NCBI GenBank assembly: GCA_009869945.1
Contig: WIXG01000167.1
Span: 103,004 to 167,003 of the forward strand
DNA: 64,000 bases
Reading direction: 5' to 3'
DNA from: Mesaphorura yosii
Lineage: Eukaryota > Arthropoda > Collembola > Poduromorpha > Tullbergiidae
Of the stretch, positions 311 through 5,316 are shown one piece after another. The notes under the pieces are model-generated. The model was not told where the DNA came from, made no database searches, and was given only the letters and a program-made list of their open reading frames with translations. Position 1 is the stretch's first letter. Each line of letters begins with the position of its first letter. The position numbers and the translations under genes were made by a program.

Positions 311-496
311 TGTAAAAGGCAAACGCACGATGACGTTGACCAACTTCGTTGTGCTTCAAGTTGCATGAAATCTAAATCAGCGAACTGAATTTCCTTCTCT
401 TCAAATTCGGGCACTTGTGGCTTGATGCCCGCCTGAATTAAAACTAATTAATGCGCAATCCCAGTATTGTATCCTCTGAGTTGGCAATCAACGGTC

Positions 497-502
497 TTTA
501 TT
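497..502 (-). terminator. Poly(A) signal of member A
   Basis: AATAAA on the minus strand about 25 bp after the member A stop, giving a very short 3' UTR. Similar signals follow member B (933-928), the pseudogene (1477-1472) and member C (1938-1933). Confidence 0.6.
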
Positions 503-526
503 TAAGGAAGTGATAGAACATAGTGT

Positions 527-808
527 TTAGCAGCACAGCACCTTCTTCCCAAGAAAGCATCGTTGTCCATCACCGTACTCATCTTCTCGTCGGAGCATCC
601 AGCCCAATGGGCAACGCCCTTTGCAGAAAGGAGCGGTTCCAACCCAGCGACATTCCCGATTAATTACTTGGGCAGCTAAAGTTAAATGGAGTATTTCTTT
701 AAACGATGGCATTAACTAAAACCAAAACTTACGTGGTGGTGGAATGATTGATGAATACGAAAGGCTAATCGACAGCAGAACGAATGTCCAACAGACTACT
801 AATTTCAT
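527..808 (-). CDS. Secreted six-cysteine protein, member A
   Basis: Predicted 74-residue secreted protein. Exon 1 is 808..733 and exon 2 is 675..527, with a 57-bp intron (GTAAGT...TTTAG, phase 1). Exon 1 encodes a signal peptide (MKLVVCWTFVLLSISLSYSS) and a short Pro stretch. Exon 2 encodes the array's shared domain (about residues 34-74): C-x8-C-x3-C-x17-C-x7-CC, starting CRWVGTAPFC, with a GDG before Cys4 and ending KKVLCC right at the stop. Six cysteines suggest three disulfides. An AATAAA lies at 502-497, about 25 bp after the stop. It is the last unit of a minus-strand tandem array. Function unknown: size and layout fit an extracellular cysteine-rich peptide (defence, cuticle or protease-inhibitor roles are all possible), but nothing in the sequence decides this. 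Confidence 0.85.
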
Positions 809-981
809 GTTAACTGTAATAAATTAGGAACGATTCGCTTAACACAGTCACCAATACGATTTTACGACCAAGTGAACCAAATGAGTTTCGCCAGTGCATT
901 AGTTACAAAAGTCGAGGCATGGAGTCGTTTATTTAACTGAAGGTAATTGGCTTAATTGCATCAACGAAAAAACCGCAATCG

Positions 982-1280
982 TCAATCCTGGCAGCAAAAT
1001 ACTTTCCTTCCGCTTGCACATTTAAACCCGTCGCCTGCAATGTCCGACGCAAGCTGTCTCCAACCTCGACCGCAACGTCCATTGCAAAATGGTGCAGTTC
1101 CGACCCATTCACAACCTACACGCGAATAAGCACGTACTTCGTTATTGCGAACACTGGCTCCGGTATTTCATAAGTAATTTCGAACTTACGTAATGCTCCT
1201 GATGGTAAAAGGAAGATGCATATCACAATTCCAAGCAAAACCACCCGCAAAGCCAGAAGTTTGACAATGGAAGCCGACAT
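982..1280 (-). CDS. Secreted six-cysteine protein, member B
   Basis: Predicted 74-residue secreted protein. Exon 1 is 1280..1190 and exon 2 is 1115..982, with a 74-bp intron (GTAAGT...GTGTAG, phase 1). Each exon alone is under 35 codons or so, so the gene is seen only by splicing. The signal peptide is hydrophobic (core VVLLGIVICIFLLP). The domain (about residues 32-72) starts CEWVGTAPFC and keeps C-x8-C-x3-C-x17-C-x7-CC with GDG before Cys4, then adds Gln-Asp before TGA. It differs from member A mainly between Cys3 and GDG. An AATAAA is at 933-928. Member A starts 173 bp downstream. Same length, intron position and phase as member A, so a recent tandem duplicate. Function unknown. Confidence 0.85.
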
Positions 1281-1525
1281 CTAAAATTCCTGAATCGAGT
1301 TTTCTAGTGGATGTGCAAGTCGCAATCACAAATTGAGAATTGAAATGAATATTTTCTCACTATTCATTCATAAGCTTCTGCGCAGATGCAACTCATTAAA
1401 ATTACTTTAATTACTAAACATGATCGAATGTGATCCAATTAATTTGTCGAAAACAATCAACTTCTGAGATATTTATTCCAGTAATTAATTTCGAGTGAAG
1501 CTGGTTATTCGCAAATGATGGTCAA

Positions 1526-1863
1526 TTAACAACAAAGTCTCTTTTCGCGTTAGGTAGGTACGTCGATTGCTCGACTTGCCTCTGCTGAGTGTTCTGCTTC
1601 CAATGGCACAGACTCCAACGCAACAGAAAAGTGCAGTACCTGTCAAGCGACAGTTTAAAGTTTGCCAATCCACCGACCGAAAGTCAGCATTGCAAAACTA
1701 GGGCAAGTAAATATGAATGCAATGTTCTGACAATTTACTCAAGTGATAATTTTTCAGGTTCGAAAAGCTCCTCCAGTCGACTCAGCCTGAGCCTGTCCTT
1801 TCTACCTGAATAACGCCAGCAAATGCGACACGCAGAACAAAAGCAGTAAAAGAAAGATTTCGT
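1526..1863 (-). pseudogene. Decayed copy of the six-cysteine family
   Basis: Lies between intact members B and C and resembles C most. The signal-peptide exon survives in part (VAFAGVI, minus strand near 1810-1828, shared with C), but the ATG position reads ACG (1863-1861). The first-cysteine region is at 1652 (CRLTGTALFC). Relative to the family it has Pro to Leu, one extra residue and Cys between Cys2 and Cys3, TAC where Cys4 should be, and 73 nt instead of about 75 nt between Cys3 and the final CC. The final Cys-Cys-stop (1534-1526) therefore lies in another frame. The intron acceptor AG before the domain also seems lost. An AATAAA is kept at 1477-1472. Several independent lesions make a pseudogene much more likely than a divergent gene. 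Confidence 0.7.
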
Positions 1864-1985
1864 TTTGTACCAAGTTAGCAAGAGCAGGATGTACGATCAA
1901 TGGCAATCAGTCGATCGCAATCAATTTGGACATTTATTTCAGCAATACTTGATTAGATTCCGGCTGGATTCACAAAAGTGGCTGA

Positions 1986-2266
1986 TTAGCAACATAGCAC
2001 CTTTTCGCCGGTTATGCATCGACTTCCGCCACCAGCTTTGTCTCTGTATATAGCGACTCTTCCGCTGGGGCAGACTCCTTTGCAGAAGGGTGCAGTTCCA
2101 ACCCAACTGCAACCTGTAAGTTGGTTAAGACTGGGTTGAAAGTGCAATGAATGAATTTATTGTCGATTTTAATCTCACCGAAAGCTTGCATGGCTCTGGC
2201 CTCGGCTACGTCCATCCCAATGACACCAGCAAATGCAACGACCAGAAAAATGGTAGCAAAACGCAT
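1986..2266 (-). CDS. Secreted six-cysteine protein, member C
   Basis: Predicted 71-residue secreted protein. Exon 1 is 2266..2179 and exon 2 is 2113..1986, with a 65-bp intron (GTGAGA...CTTACAG, phase 1). Reading through the intron gives an 84-codon frame that misses the domain; splicing restores it. Exon 1 encodes a signal peptide (MRFATIFLVVAFAGVIGMDV) and a short linker. Exon 2 encodes C-x8-C-x3-C-x17-C-x7-CC, starting CSWVGTAPFC and ending GEKVLCC at TAA. The usual GDG before Cys4 is GGG here. AATAAA is at 1938-1933. The pseudogene next door shares its signal-peptide sequence. Function unknown; same family as the neighbours by cysteine spacing and intron phase. Confidence 0.85.
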
Positions 2267-2850
2267 TGTGATTTGTGAGAAGTTATGTCTTCAATTCCTT
2301 GTATCCTCGAAGCGTAAGCTCACTCTGACTCTGACGACCCACTGCCGCTGTCTACGCAAGATCATGACCCATGCGTCCGCGCCGTAATAAATCAGACCCA
2401 ATTACAGAATTTAATTAGTGGGCAGTGCTACTAATTAGTACAAGCATTTATTTGTACGTAAGGTGCATTAATTGCAATTACTAAATGAGGTTGAGCTACT
2501 GTGAACTTCGAAGCTGCGGCTGGTGCTGTGCTGCGCTGGCTTGGCTAAAGTGCTGCTGGAATGTGCTACTGTAATTAGCACTCATCAGCTGACCCGAGTA
2601 CTGCACCGTTTTAAAGATACGCCTTTGCTCATAAAATGGAGTCAGTTGAAGTATGTTTGTGGAGGTTATTACAATTACACAGGTTTATTCTCATCTTTTA
2701 ACTACTATAATAAATAACAATAATAAATTAATCACATTAATACGGTTCACACACAATCACACAAATACGAATGCCAGTGTGGCCGGGTTGGGTCAAGATG
2801 ACGTAACGACGAGAATGGATGAAACCACGAATTAAAGGTAAATCGCGCGT
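2267..2850. other. Spacer between members C and D
   Basis: Gene-free spacer of 584 bp holding the upstream region of member C and the 3' flank of member D (alternative AATAAA at 2689-2684). The stretch 2697-2735 is a degenerate AAT/AAC-rich simple sequence. No other feature seen. Confidence 0.5.
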
Positions 2851-3486
2851 TTATTGACAGCAGAGCGTCTTCCTTCCAGTCCAGCATTTTTTACCGTCTC
2901 CATACGACCCTGTCTCCTTCAACCACCAGCCGCTATCAGGACACTTCCCGTCACAAAACGGCGCTGTTCCAAACCATCTGCAATTATCTGGAATCAAATA
3001 TGCATGTAATAAAAAGAGGCCCGATATACTTTCGTTCGATGTGGTGTGAAAAAACATACCAAATTTAGTTGTTCGGCTGAAGGTGGTCCTTGCTCTTGCA
3101 TTCGAAAACATCTGGGCATGGCTCTTCAGATTTCGCAGCCGTGTTTGCGGATCTTCGTCAGTCGAGCAAATCTGAACGTAGTCGTCCATAATCGTCATGA
3201 ATATTTTGTCACGCACAGCTTCGTGCTGCTTCTTTTCGGTGGGGCTGAGTTCGCTGTCCACGATTTCAGCAAATGCTTGCAGCAGTTCGCGCTTGACCAT
3301 TTCCAGCTCGGCCAACCGCGCCTGCCGGCTCGTGCTTTTTCCACACACTCGTTCGAACCTCAGCAGTGTACTCGAAGAAGCGCCAATTGCCAGGTCCAAA
3401 GCTGCGGCTTTTTCTTCTTCTGTCAAGGCGAGTACATTAAAAACTACTGATAACGTAATTACAAGGGCACAGTACACACGCTGCAT
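2851..3486 (-). CDS. Six-cysteine domain fused to helical N-terminal region, member D
   Basis: Predicted 187-residue secreted protein, the largest of the array. Exon 1 is 3486..3060 and exon 2 is 2987..2851, with a 72-bp intron (GTATGT...GATTCCAG, phase 1). The signal peptide is MQRVYCALVITLSVVFNVLA. Residues about 22-140 are charged and Leu/Ala-rich, predicted helical, with two cysteines and no motif I recognise. Exon 2 gives the shared domain (145-186): CRWFGTAPFC, C-x8-C-x3-C-x18-C-x7-CC, GDG before Cys4, then Gln. The intron is a multiple of three and stop-free, so the unspliced frame also encodes a continuous 211-residue protein. The TAA stop lies inside an AATAAA (2855-2850); another AATAAA lies at 2689-2684. 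A TATA box sits about 110 bp upstream of the ATG. Function unknown. Confidence 0.85.
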   Translation of the reverse strand: MQRVYCALVITLSVVFNVLALTEEEKAAALDLAIGASSSTLLRFERVCGKSTSRQARLAELEMVKRELLQAFAEIVDSELSPTEKKQHEAVRDKIFMTIMDDYVQICSTDEDPQTRLRNLKSHAQMFSNARARTTFSRTTKFGMFFHTTSNESISGLFLLHAYLIPDNCRWFGTAPFCDGKCPDSGWWLKETGSYGDGKKCWTGRKTLCCQ

Positions 3487-3594
3487 GATAAAGGGCTTAG
3501 ATTATCTGGGCACGCCAACAGTCAACAGGACAATAAATTGACCAAAGCAAAAACTGTTGTATTTTATGACGGATGGAAGCTGCTAGCTGTTCCA

Positions 3595-3602: not shown

Positions 3603-4735
3603 ACGTTTGGGTAAACCGCAAGAACTCGCTTCCCTACCATTTGTCCAGATCACCAAAAAAGGGAAACCGTTTTTTGTGATATTGCGCATGACCATTCAAT
3701 GAATTAATTCTTCAATTTGTACTCGAATTAGTCGTTTTTCTTGTTCTTTCATTCATTACGTCTTCTTTAGCCTGTTCTTCAACATATCATATCATATCAT
3801 CATAGGCAGCAGCATAAGCCAGCAGAGATGTCACCTGTGTGGGTGGCTTTCGGTCGTGTGTGCTGGAAACAGTCGCAAACACGTCACATCGACTTACCGT
3901 CAATGCGCATTACAATTTACAATACATTGTTACTCCGTGTATTTCCATTGTAGGTATTCTCAGGTTTTTTCGCATTTCGCACTAAAAATTTTACGCTGGT
4001 CCAAGTTCCAAGAACCCTGCCGTGCGAAAATTAACCACACACATACTTGTACTCGACCGCACTTACTTTCTTACACGTTTGCACTACTTCACTTAGCTTC
4101 ATAGACGTATTAGTTGTACGTATGCACCCACATATAACAGCTATTCGCCAATTTGCATGTCTTTCAGCAGTAAATCATGGGTCATTTTTATTTACAGTAT
4201 GTCCCTTTAAAGTATTTCCAGTTTCTCCTTTGTAATAATAATAACACTGAAATAACGAGCGTTTCCTGTTTCAAAGAAAGCACCGCAGCACAGCAGAAAG
4301 AGGCCTCTAATTTAATATCGTGCCGCATGCCGTTGCTGGAAATGAAACTACAGGCGCAATGACTCAACTATTTATAATACTAAACGCTCAGCTCGCAACG
4401 TAAAGTAGTCCACTTGACTTTCATAAATGCTCTTGAATAATTTAAATTGTTATTTTCATTTATTATTTTGCGCATTCTATTTCCAGTCATTAAATCCCTT
4501 CCTTCTTGAGATCGACCCATTTCCTTTGTGCGTGGCTCACATTACTGTGCCAGAAATAACGTGGAACGAGAAGCGTAAGAATAGAAATGCCAATTTATTG
4601 TTTACTTTCAGTTTTCCAATTCACAATTTAGATGTGCTTAAAGTGCGAAGGATTTGAAGCACCGGATGGATAAATTGGAGAGGAAAGGAACGGGAAGGGA
4701 AGGTCATTGACAATTTACGTAAAGCCTAGACGAGT
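3603..4735. other. Intergenic spacer with short tandem repeat
   Basis: No coding frame with convincing splice signals. Contains a short ATATC/ATC tandem run near 3783-3803. Toward the right end is the probable poly(A) signal of the cuticle gene (AATAAA, minus strand, 4599-4594, about 137 bp after its stop). Confidence 0.5.
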
Positions 4736-5316
4736 TCAGTATGCAATCTTGTATCCATGTTGCTCAACTGGAGTGTAAACATGGGCGACCTTAACTCCAG
4801 TGGTGTAGGTGACTGGTGCTGGAATTGCGACGGCTGGTGCAGCGGCGGCGTACTGCAGATTAGAGAATCAAGATTATTTGTTAGGAACGGTCCGAATCGA
4901 ATGTGAATCCTGCACAACTCATTGACTTACAGTAACGGCTGGAGCAGCGGCGATGGCAACTGGAGCCGGGGCGGCAGCAAGAGGAATTGCTGGAGCTGGA
5001 GCAGCAGCAATCTAATGCATCACAAGCAAAGAGTCCTCCTCAGTATACTGTCCAATGAATATCGTCCTAATACATATTTCTTACGGTTTTTACAATTGGT
5101 GCTGGAGCAGCTGCGTAGGCAATCGGAGCAGGACCAGCGACCAAGGTGGTACCAGCCGGATTTCCGGGACCAGTTGCAGGGAAGAGGCCACCGGGCACAG
5201 CTACGGTCACAGCCAGGAGAGTGGAGAGTAGAACCTGCCACAAATTAGGTGGATGAACTGCTTGTAGTCACATGCTTACGTGCAGAAATATGTGAACTTA
5301 CAATTTTGGAGAACAT
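4736..5316 (-). CDS. Alanine-rich cuticle protein, four exons
   Basis: Predicted 120-residue structural cuticle protein. Exons (minus): 5316..5302, 5234..5085, 5011..4931, 4852..4736; all introns are phase 0 with GTAAG donors and AG acceptors (67, 73 and 78 bp). The first exon has only five codons, MFSKI; joined to exon 2 it makes the signal peptide (MFSKIVLLSTLLAVTVAVPG), a start common in arthropod cuticle proteins. The mature chain is low-complexity, rich in Ala, Pro and Val, with repeated AAAPAP/AAAPAV units and a C-terminal VAHVYTPVEQHGYKIAY. There is no Rebers-Riddiford chitin-binding domain, so it belongs with the low-complexity alanine-rich cuticle proteins. Likely secreted by the epidermis into the cuticle. 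The promoter has a TATA box about 105 bp upstream of the ATG. Confidence 0.85.

Follow-up and report, generated by a model that had tools for sequence, protein, structure and literature searches.

The minus strand of a 64,000-nucleotide stretch of the collembolan Mesaphorura yosii genome (contig WIXG01000167.1, positions 103,004 to 167,003; this whole stretch is called the window below) contained, at window positions 527–3486, four intact genes with the cysteine pattern C-x8-C-x3-C-x17/18-C-x7-CC and one decayed copy. The array appears to encode secreted proteins that are stabilised by disulfides and share a single module of about 41 residues; the products of genes 1–3 were minimal, and that of gene 4 carried an N-terminal extension. 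This delimits a secreted domain that the searched family libraries lack, and by which animal and bacterial proteins are joined. Our tentative preference, held with real doubt, is that an extracellular module with a fold like that of trans-defensins occurs in the array as stand-alone copies, which probably act on the surfaces of microbes or on others outside the cell.

Organisation of the array

A preliminary description of this DNA had placed four intact genes and one decayed copy on a shared strand at 490–3490. This placement was confirmed, and the strand was the minus strand. The regular expression of the module matched the six-frame translation of the window at four places and gave no match in 100 dinucleotide-preserving shuffles, in agreement with the six-cysteine motif and spacing described earlier. 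The cysteine spacings were 8, 3, 17, 7, and 0 in three copies and 8, 3, 18, 7, and 0 in the fourth. The module comprised 41–42 residues, 18 columns of which were invariant across the four window domains, and the four domains were cationic, with net charges of +3 to +4. The signal peptides proposed for all four genes were also supported by a hydrophobic N-terminal stretch in each product (best 10-residue Kyte–Doolittle mean of 2.77 to 3.58).

Each gene was modelled as a signal exon, a short phase-1 GT-AG intron, and a last exon containing the domain, with exon joins taken from sequence-based splice models. The modelled introns of genes 1–4 were 57, 74, 65, and 72 nt long, and the products were 74, 74, 71, and 187 residues long, respectively. 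Gene 1 (527–808, minus strand, as are all the following), defined by sequence, open reading frame, and splice model, was composed of a signal exon (733–808), an intron (676–732), and a domain exon (527–675), with the domain at 530–652. Gene 2 (982–1280) contained a signal exon at 1190–1280, an intron at 1116–1189, and a domain exon at 982–1115 (domain 991–1113). In gene 3 (1986–2266), the corresponding elements were located at 2179–2266, 2114–2178, and 1986–2113 (domain 1989–2111). The decayed copy (1533–1851) lay between genes 2 and 3. Its domain remnant (1533–1652) matched gene 3 at 35% over 40 residues (E value of 0.047) and lacked the tryptophan, the proline, and the last three cysteines, and its signal-exon remnant (1809–1851) showed 74% identity to the signal exon of gene 3, with a stop codon in the signal-exon frame.

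Gene 4 (2851–3486) was composed of a first exon (3060–3486), an intron (2988–3059), and a domain exon (2851–2987; domain 2857–2982). An alternative 42-nt intron, also of phase 1, scored equally to the 72-nt intron, and the unspliced frame was open as well (211 residues). The first exon encoded a signal peptide and about 120 residues ahead of the domain, including two extra cysteines, and this N-terminal region was charged by eye. Therefore, the earlier term "small secreted proteins" suited genes 1–3, which encoded little beyond a signal peptide and the module, but not gene 4. The first exon of gene 4 had no other match in the genome, and its N-terminal part matched no Pfam family at E 0.1, with one sub-threshold Pfam match at E 0.2. 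On the minus strand at 4736–5267, 1.3 kb from the array, Ala/Pro-rich secreted frames were observed that looked cuticle-like by eye. Rfam gave no match in the window.

The earlier view that the six-cysteine domain belongs to no named family was borne out by searches of Pfam, NCBIfam, PHROGs, and PDB sequences, none of which returned the strong match to a characterised family that had been named as its refutation. The domain had no Pfam match at E values up to 1 in one search and up to 10 in another, which covered 11 domains. NCBIfam, for which the queries were gene 1 and four bacterial proteins, gave none in the module, and the curated cut-off of any family in these two libraries was not reached there. 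Two weak PHROGs matches (E 0.0022 and 0.46) had no known function, and the PDB sequence searches gave only two unrelated chains (E 0.5 to 2.6). A resemblance of W-x-G-x-x-P-x-C to the end of a sushi domain was not supported by any Pfam match. The string GTAPFC was not found in the literature searched.

Paralogues and bacterial relatives of the module

Three protein searches of the genome (93 Mb, 1127 contigs) located further copies of the module on contigs C176, C875, and C164. The local tandem expansion inferred earlier was thus real, but the family was not confined to it and occupied at least seven places in 93 Mb, the paralogue counts being lower bounds. The C176 copy was followed by a 122-residue, partly Pro/Thr-rich tail, the C875 copy contained a seventh cysteine that split loop 3, and the C164 copy was divergent and acidic. 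A phase-1 intron 5' of the cysteine-rich region was the best model in all seven genes, with that of C164 being ambiguous; in gene 1 and C164, the modelled intron was located about 10 residues before Cys1. When the six copies other than C164 were compared by codon, third positions differed at 22–30 of 41 sites versus 10–19 of 41 for first and second positions. The nonsynonymous rate (dN) was 0.38–0.59, whereas the synonymous rate (dS) was 2.82 and 1.75 in two of the 15 pairs and could not be defined in the other 13. By this codon evidence, the six compared copies are old duplicates under protein constraint.

Two further candidates were dropped: C446 (E 0.27, one stop), which gave only weak pieces in local tblastn, and L001, a DNA pattern absent from every open frame of 40 residues. 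Beside the C875 copy, a signal-peptide-bearing, apparently helical frame with two cysteines in its mature part (L009:957–1328) loosely resembled the N-terminal region of gene 4 by eye; it was not recovered by the genome search with the first exon of gene 4. Arrays of TTAGG, the telomere repeat that fits arthropods, were present in the genome, and the pattern GATGGGTTTT, which fits tardigrades, was absent from it. Together with the cuticle-like frames, the TTAGG arrays point to an arthropod. A search for the insect odorant-receptor family gave no match, and neither did its controls.

The bacterial relatives of the module, identified by sequence, are new here. Two peptide patterns were scanned against 84,980 species genomes of bacteria and archaea. 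The scan gave 22 stretches and two loci, one of which was a relative in a Myxococcales metagenome-assembled genome (L023). A Halegenticoccus locus (L024) was dropped, with WVGTAPFC present and the remaining cysteines missing. When 195 genomes of the L023 phylum were searched with a profile, at most 36 candidates being scored in each, six gave a match: the L023 genome itself, a clear relative in G129 (E 2.6e-13), and four weak matches (E 0.006–0.009), which were dropped; the one that was read, L038, was no relative. A single-protein search of 97 relatives returned only the L023 genome and one weak place, in G166 (E 0.007, one stop), which was dropped. Weak extra places at E 0.08–0.9 in a further search were dropped as well. 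In G129 (L036:476–1926), a second cysteine-rich stretch followed the module of the myxobacterial protein, and a secreted-looking cysteine-rich frame was its neighbour (L036:476–1084).

A plasmid search identified a gene of Cupriavidus sp. KK10 encoding 400 residues, with two modules and BTRD1 repeats (five stretches, E 1.5e-102) in addition to a signal peptide. A relative of these repeats is the N-domain of polyglycine hydrolases (PDB code 7tpu, E 2.6e-6), and a part in protein binding or anchoring has been proposed for it (PMC9912923, section 4.1). The two-module gene (L025:3746–4948) was unannotated in its record, which has two features in its table, and a transposase-like frame (by eye) lay 0.6 kb downstream. 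Plasmid matches H2–H6 and phage matches H7–H8 were dropped as weak (E 3 to 9), as was the Enterobacter plasmid match H26 (E 0.2), which lacked the tryptophan and most cysteines. Scans of viral contigs gave one locus, IMG/VR UViG_2684623061_000003, with a gene encoding a signal peptide, the module, and a ricin-B lectin (E 2.6e-21); the first such scan contained no relative among 19 stretches, the third recovered only the locus of the second, and searches of phage records gave no convincing relative and two weak matches at most. This prophage-like contig contained two genes for secreted ricin-B lectins, of which one was the module–lectin gene (L043:2929–3588 and 4224–4880; L060:1523–8164). They had a tape-measure-like gene on one side and other tail-like genes on the other, followed by a transposase-like gene; all labels but those of the lectins were assigned by eye. 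The lectin genes may be cargo carried within the tail module of a prophage. No paper in the literature searched dealt with beta-defensins, defensin-like peptides, ricin-B lectins, and bacterial genomes together.

In each of the four bacterial proteins, a few residues at most separated the apparent end of the signal peptide from the start of the module (by eye). The module would form the mature N-terminus of these secreted proteins, among which one contains a lectin and another contains structural repeats. Both bacterial domains measured for charge were acidic. Among the nine six-cysteine domains measured, loops C1–C2 (8) and C4–C5 (7) were constant, the C2–C3 loop was 3 except for 4 in C176 and 6 in C164, and loop 3 ranged from 17 to 32. 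Cys1 and Cys6 were both absent from the two clear myxobacterial homologues, which retained four cysteines. This joint absence suggests, from sequence, that Cys1 pairs with Cys6, and it may represent a single inherited event.

Predicted fold and possible roles

The AlphaFold2 model of the gene 1 domain was confident, with a predicted local distance difference test (pLDDT) score of 93. A Foldseek search with this model gave 22 weak matches, 19 of them to alpha-defensins and none significant, and the model was aligned to alpha-defensins over 30 of 30 residues at 1.4–1.5 Å. The fold search of BFVD gave 14 matches, none at E 0.001, with a best probability of 0.66 to an unnamed protein of 376 residues. 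The predicted fold of gene 1 is a small beta sheet, with alpha-defensins as the nearest solved structures; the trans-defensin superfamily is marked by an antiparallel beta sheet of three strands. Cys1 and Cys6 probably form one disulfide, because both were lost together in the two myxobacterial copies, and this joint loss provides a concrete disulfide prediction.

In the reading that we tentatively prefer, the cationic array peptides would attach to targets outside the cell, for example the envelopes of microbes or glycans on surfaces, and would act as defensin-like effectors or surface binders. The module perhaps works like a defensin; its membership of the trans-defensins is not established. 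The role in defence or environmental interaction suggested earlier gained indirect support from the predicted fold and the cationic array domains.

Several observations weigh against this reading. The structure prediction proposed earlier for the 41-residue domain was successful for gene 1 but poor for gene 4 (pLDDT 61), and the alpha-defensin matches lacked significance. The big defensin framework, C-X4-14-C-X3-C-X13-14-C-X4-7-CC, was not matched at loop 3, which has 17–18 residues in the window copies, the other loops being in range; the beta-defensin framework, C-X4-6-C-X3-4-C-X7-12-C-X5-7-CC, was matched neither at the first loop (8) nor at the third (frameworks as given in the cited part of PMC6805989). 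With respect to an induced immune role, the NF-kappaB-type site GGGRNNYYYY was absent from the 500 bp upstream of seven genes, where the mean of mononucleotide shuffles was 1.71, and the acidic C164 paralogue and the two acidic bacterial domains also speak against such a role.

The main rival is a structural or adhesive role, in which the module would be a general extracellular adhesion or glycan-binding unit without antimicrobial function, the array would encode components of the egg covering, mucus, or cuticle, and the likeness to defensins would be a coincidence among small disulfide-rich beta folds. This is possible but rather doubtful. The fusions of one bacterial copy to a ricin-B lectin and of one to BTRD1 repeats, kin of the polyglycine hydrolase N-domain, point to it, as do the C176 tail, the cuticle-like frames near the array, the missing kB-like sites, and the non-significant fold matches. 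However, three of the array products are short peptides without a tail or second domain as an anchor, and the positive charge of the array domains also fits it poorly.

Secreted effectors aimed at other organisms, such as salivary or venom-type peptides, or protease inhibitors would agree with short, disulfide-rich products, tandem and old duplications, and one decayed copy. Such a role is quite unlikely in view of the few copies located in the genome (at least seven places), the strongest conservation around Cys1–Cys3, and the homologues in bacteria; in addition, neither Pfam nor NCBIfam gave a match to a known family of toxins or inhibitors. Signalling or hormone-like peptides would be encoded as single-domain secreted precursors with conserved cysteines, as found here, but the occurrence of the domain in bacteria and a tandem array containing a decayed copy make this a very improbable reading.

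Comparison with defensins and other known systems

Six cysteines with the last two adjacent, a feature of alpha-, beta-, and big defensins, were present in all four window copies. Sequence comparison gave no link between the module and defensins. Alpha-defensins share with the module the six cysteines ending in CC, and the predicted fold of gene 1 superposes on theirs, although at a non-significant score. Cysteines are paired 1–6, 2–4, and 3–5 in alpha-defensins and 1–5, 2–4, and 3–6 in beta- and big defensins (PMC7203481, in the part cited), so that the joint loss of Cys1 and Cys6 fits the alpha-type pairing, whereas the big and beta-type 1–5/3–6 pairing is a poorer fit. The module differs from alpha-defensins in its loop lengths, its CxWxGTAPFC block, the absence of a significant score, and its occurrence outside mammals.

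Big defensins and panusins, animal peptides of the beta-defensin type, have the same C...C-x3-C...C-x7-CC order. Panusins lack the N-terminal domain (PMC7203481), as do genes 1–3, in which the hydrophobic N-terminal domain of big defensins was absent; in addition, loop 3 of big defensins has 13–14 residues versus 17–18 in the module. According to the same source, big and beta-defensin genes both have an intron of phase 1 at the 5' boundary of the cysteine-rich part, as in the gene models here. It is a weak link, because such introns are common in secreted proteins. The cited part of this 2020 review reports no trace of big defensins in insects, arachnids, and crustaceans, and states that both the origin and the evolution of trans-defensins were restricted to animals.

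That the module is a genuine relative of trans-defensins, paired as in the alpha type and shared by an arthropod and bacteria, is unlikely, but this claim on the reach of the trans-defensin fold is testable. If it held, trans-defensins would be older than animals or would have been exchanged beyond them, and the fold would be, in bacteria, one building block of secreted proteins that bear lectins or repeats.

Bacterial cis-defensins, of which 74 were reported, are likewise bacterial defensin-like peptides and also occur in Myxococcus (PMC11561630, in the section cited). However, they belong to the cis group, and their framework ends in C-x1-C (cited portion of PMC5234102) whereas the module ends in CC. 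The BCR4 peptides of aphids have a CXC motif and are described, in the cited passage of PMC9604261, as aphid-restricted. The bacterial module proteins, which were secreted by eye, share the W-x-G-T-A-P-[FW]-C and C-x-x-G-x-K-x-x-C blocks with the array peptides, and loops of 8 and 7 were kept in the two complete domains measured. Unlike the array peptides, they are longer, have a lectin or BTRD1 partner in two of four cases, and have a loop 3 of 32 residues in two domains; the myxobacterial copies further differ by the absence of Cys1 and Cys6 and, in one, by a longer Cys2–Cys3 loop.
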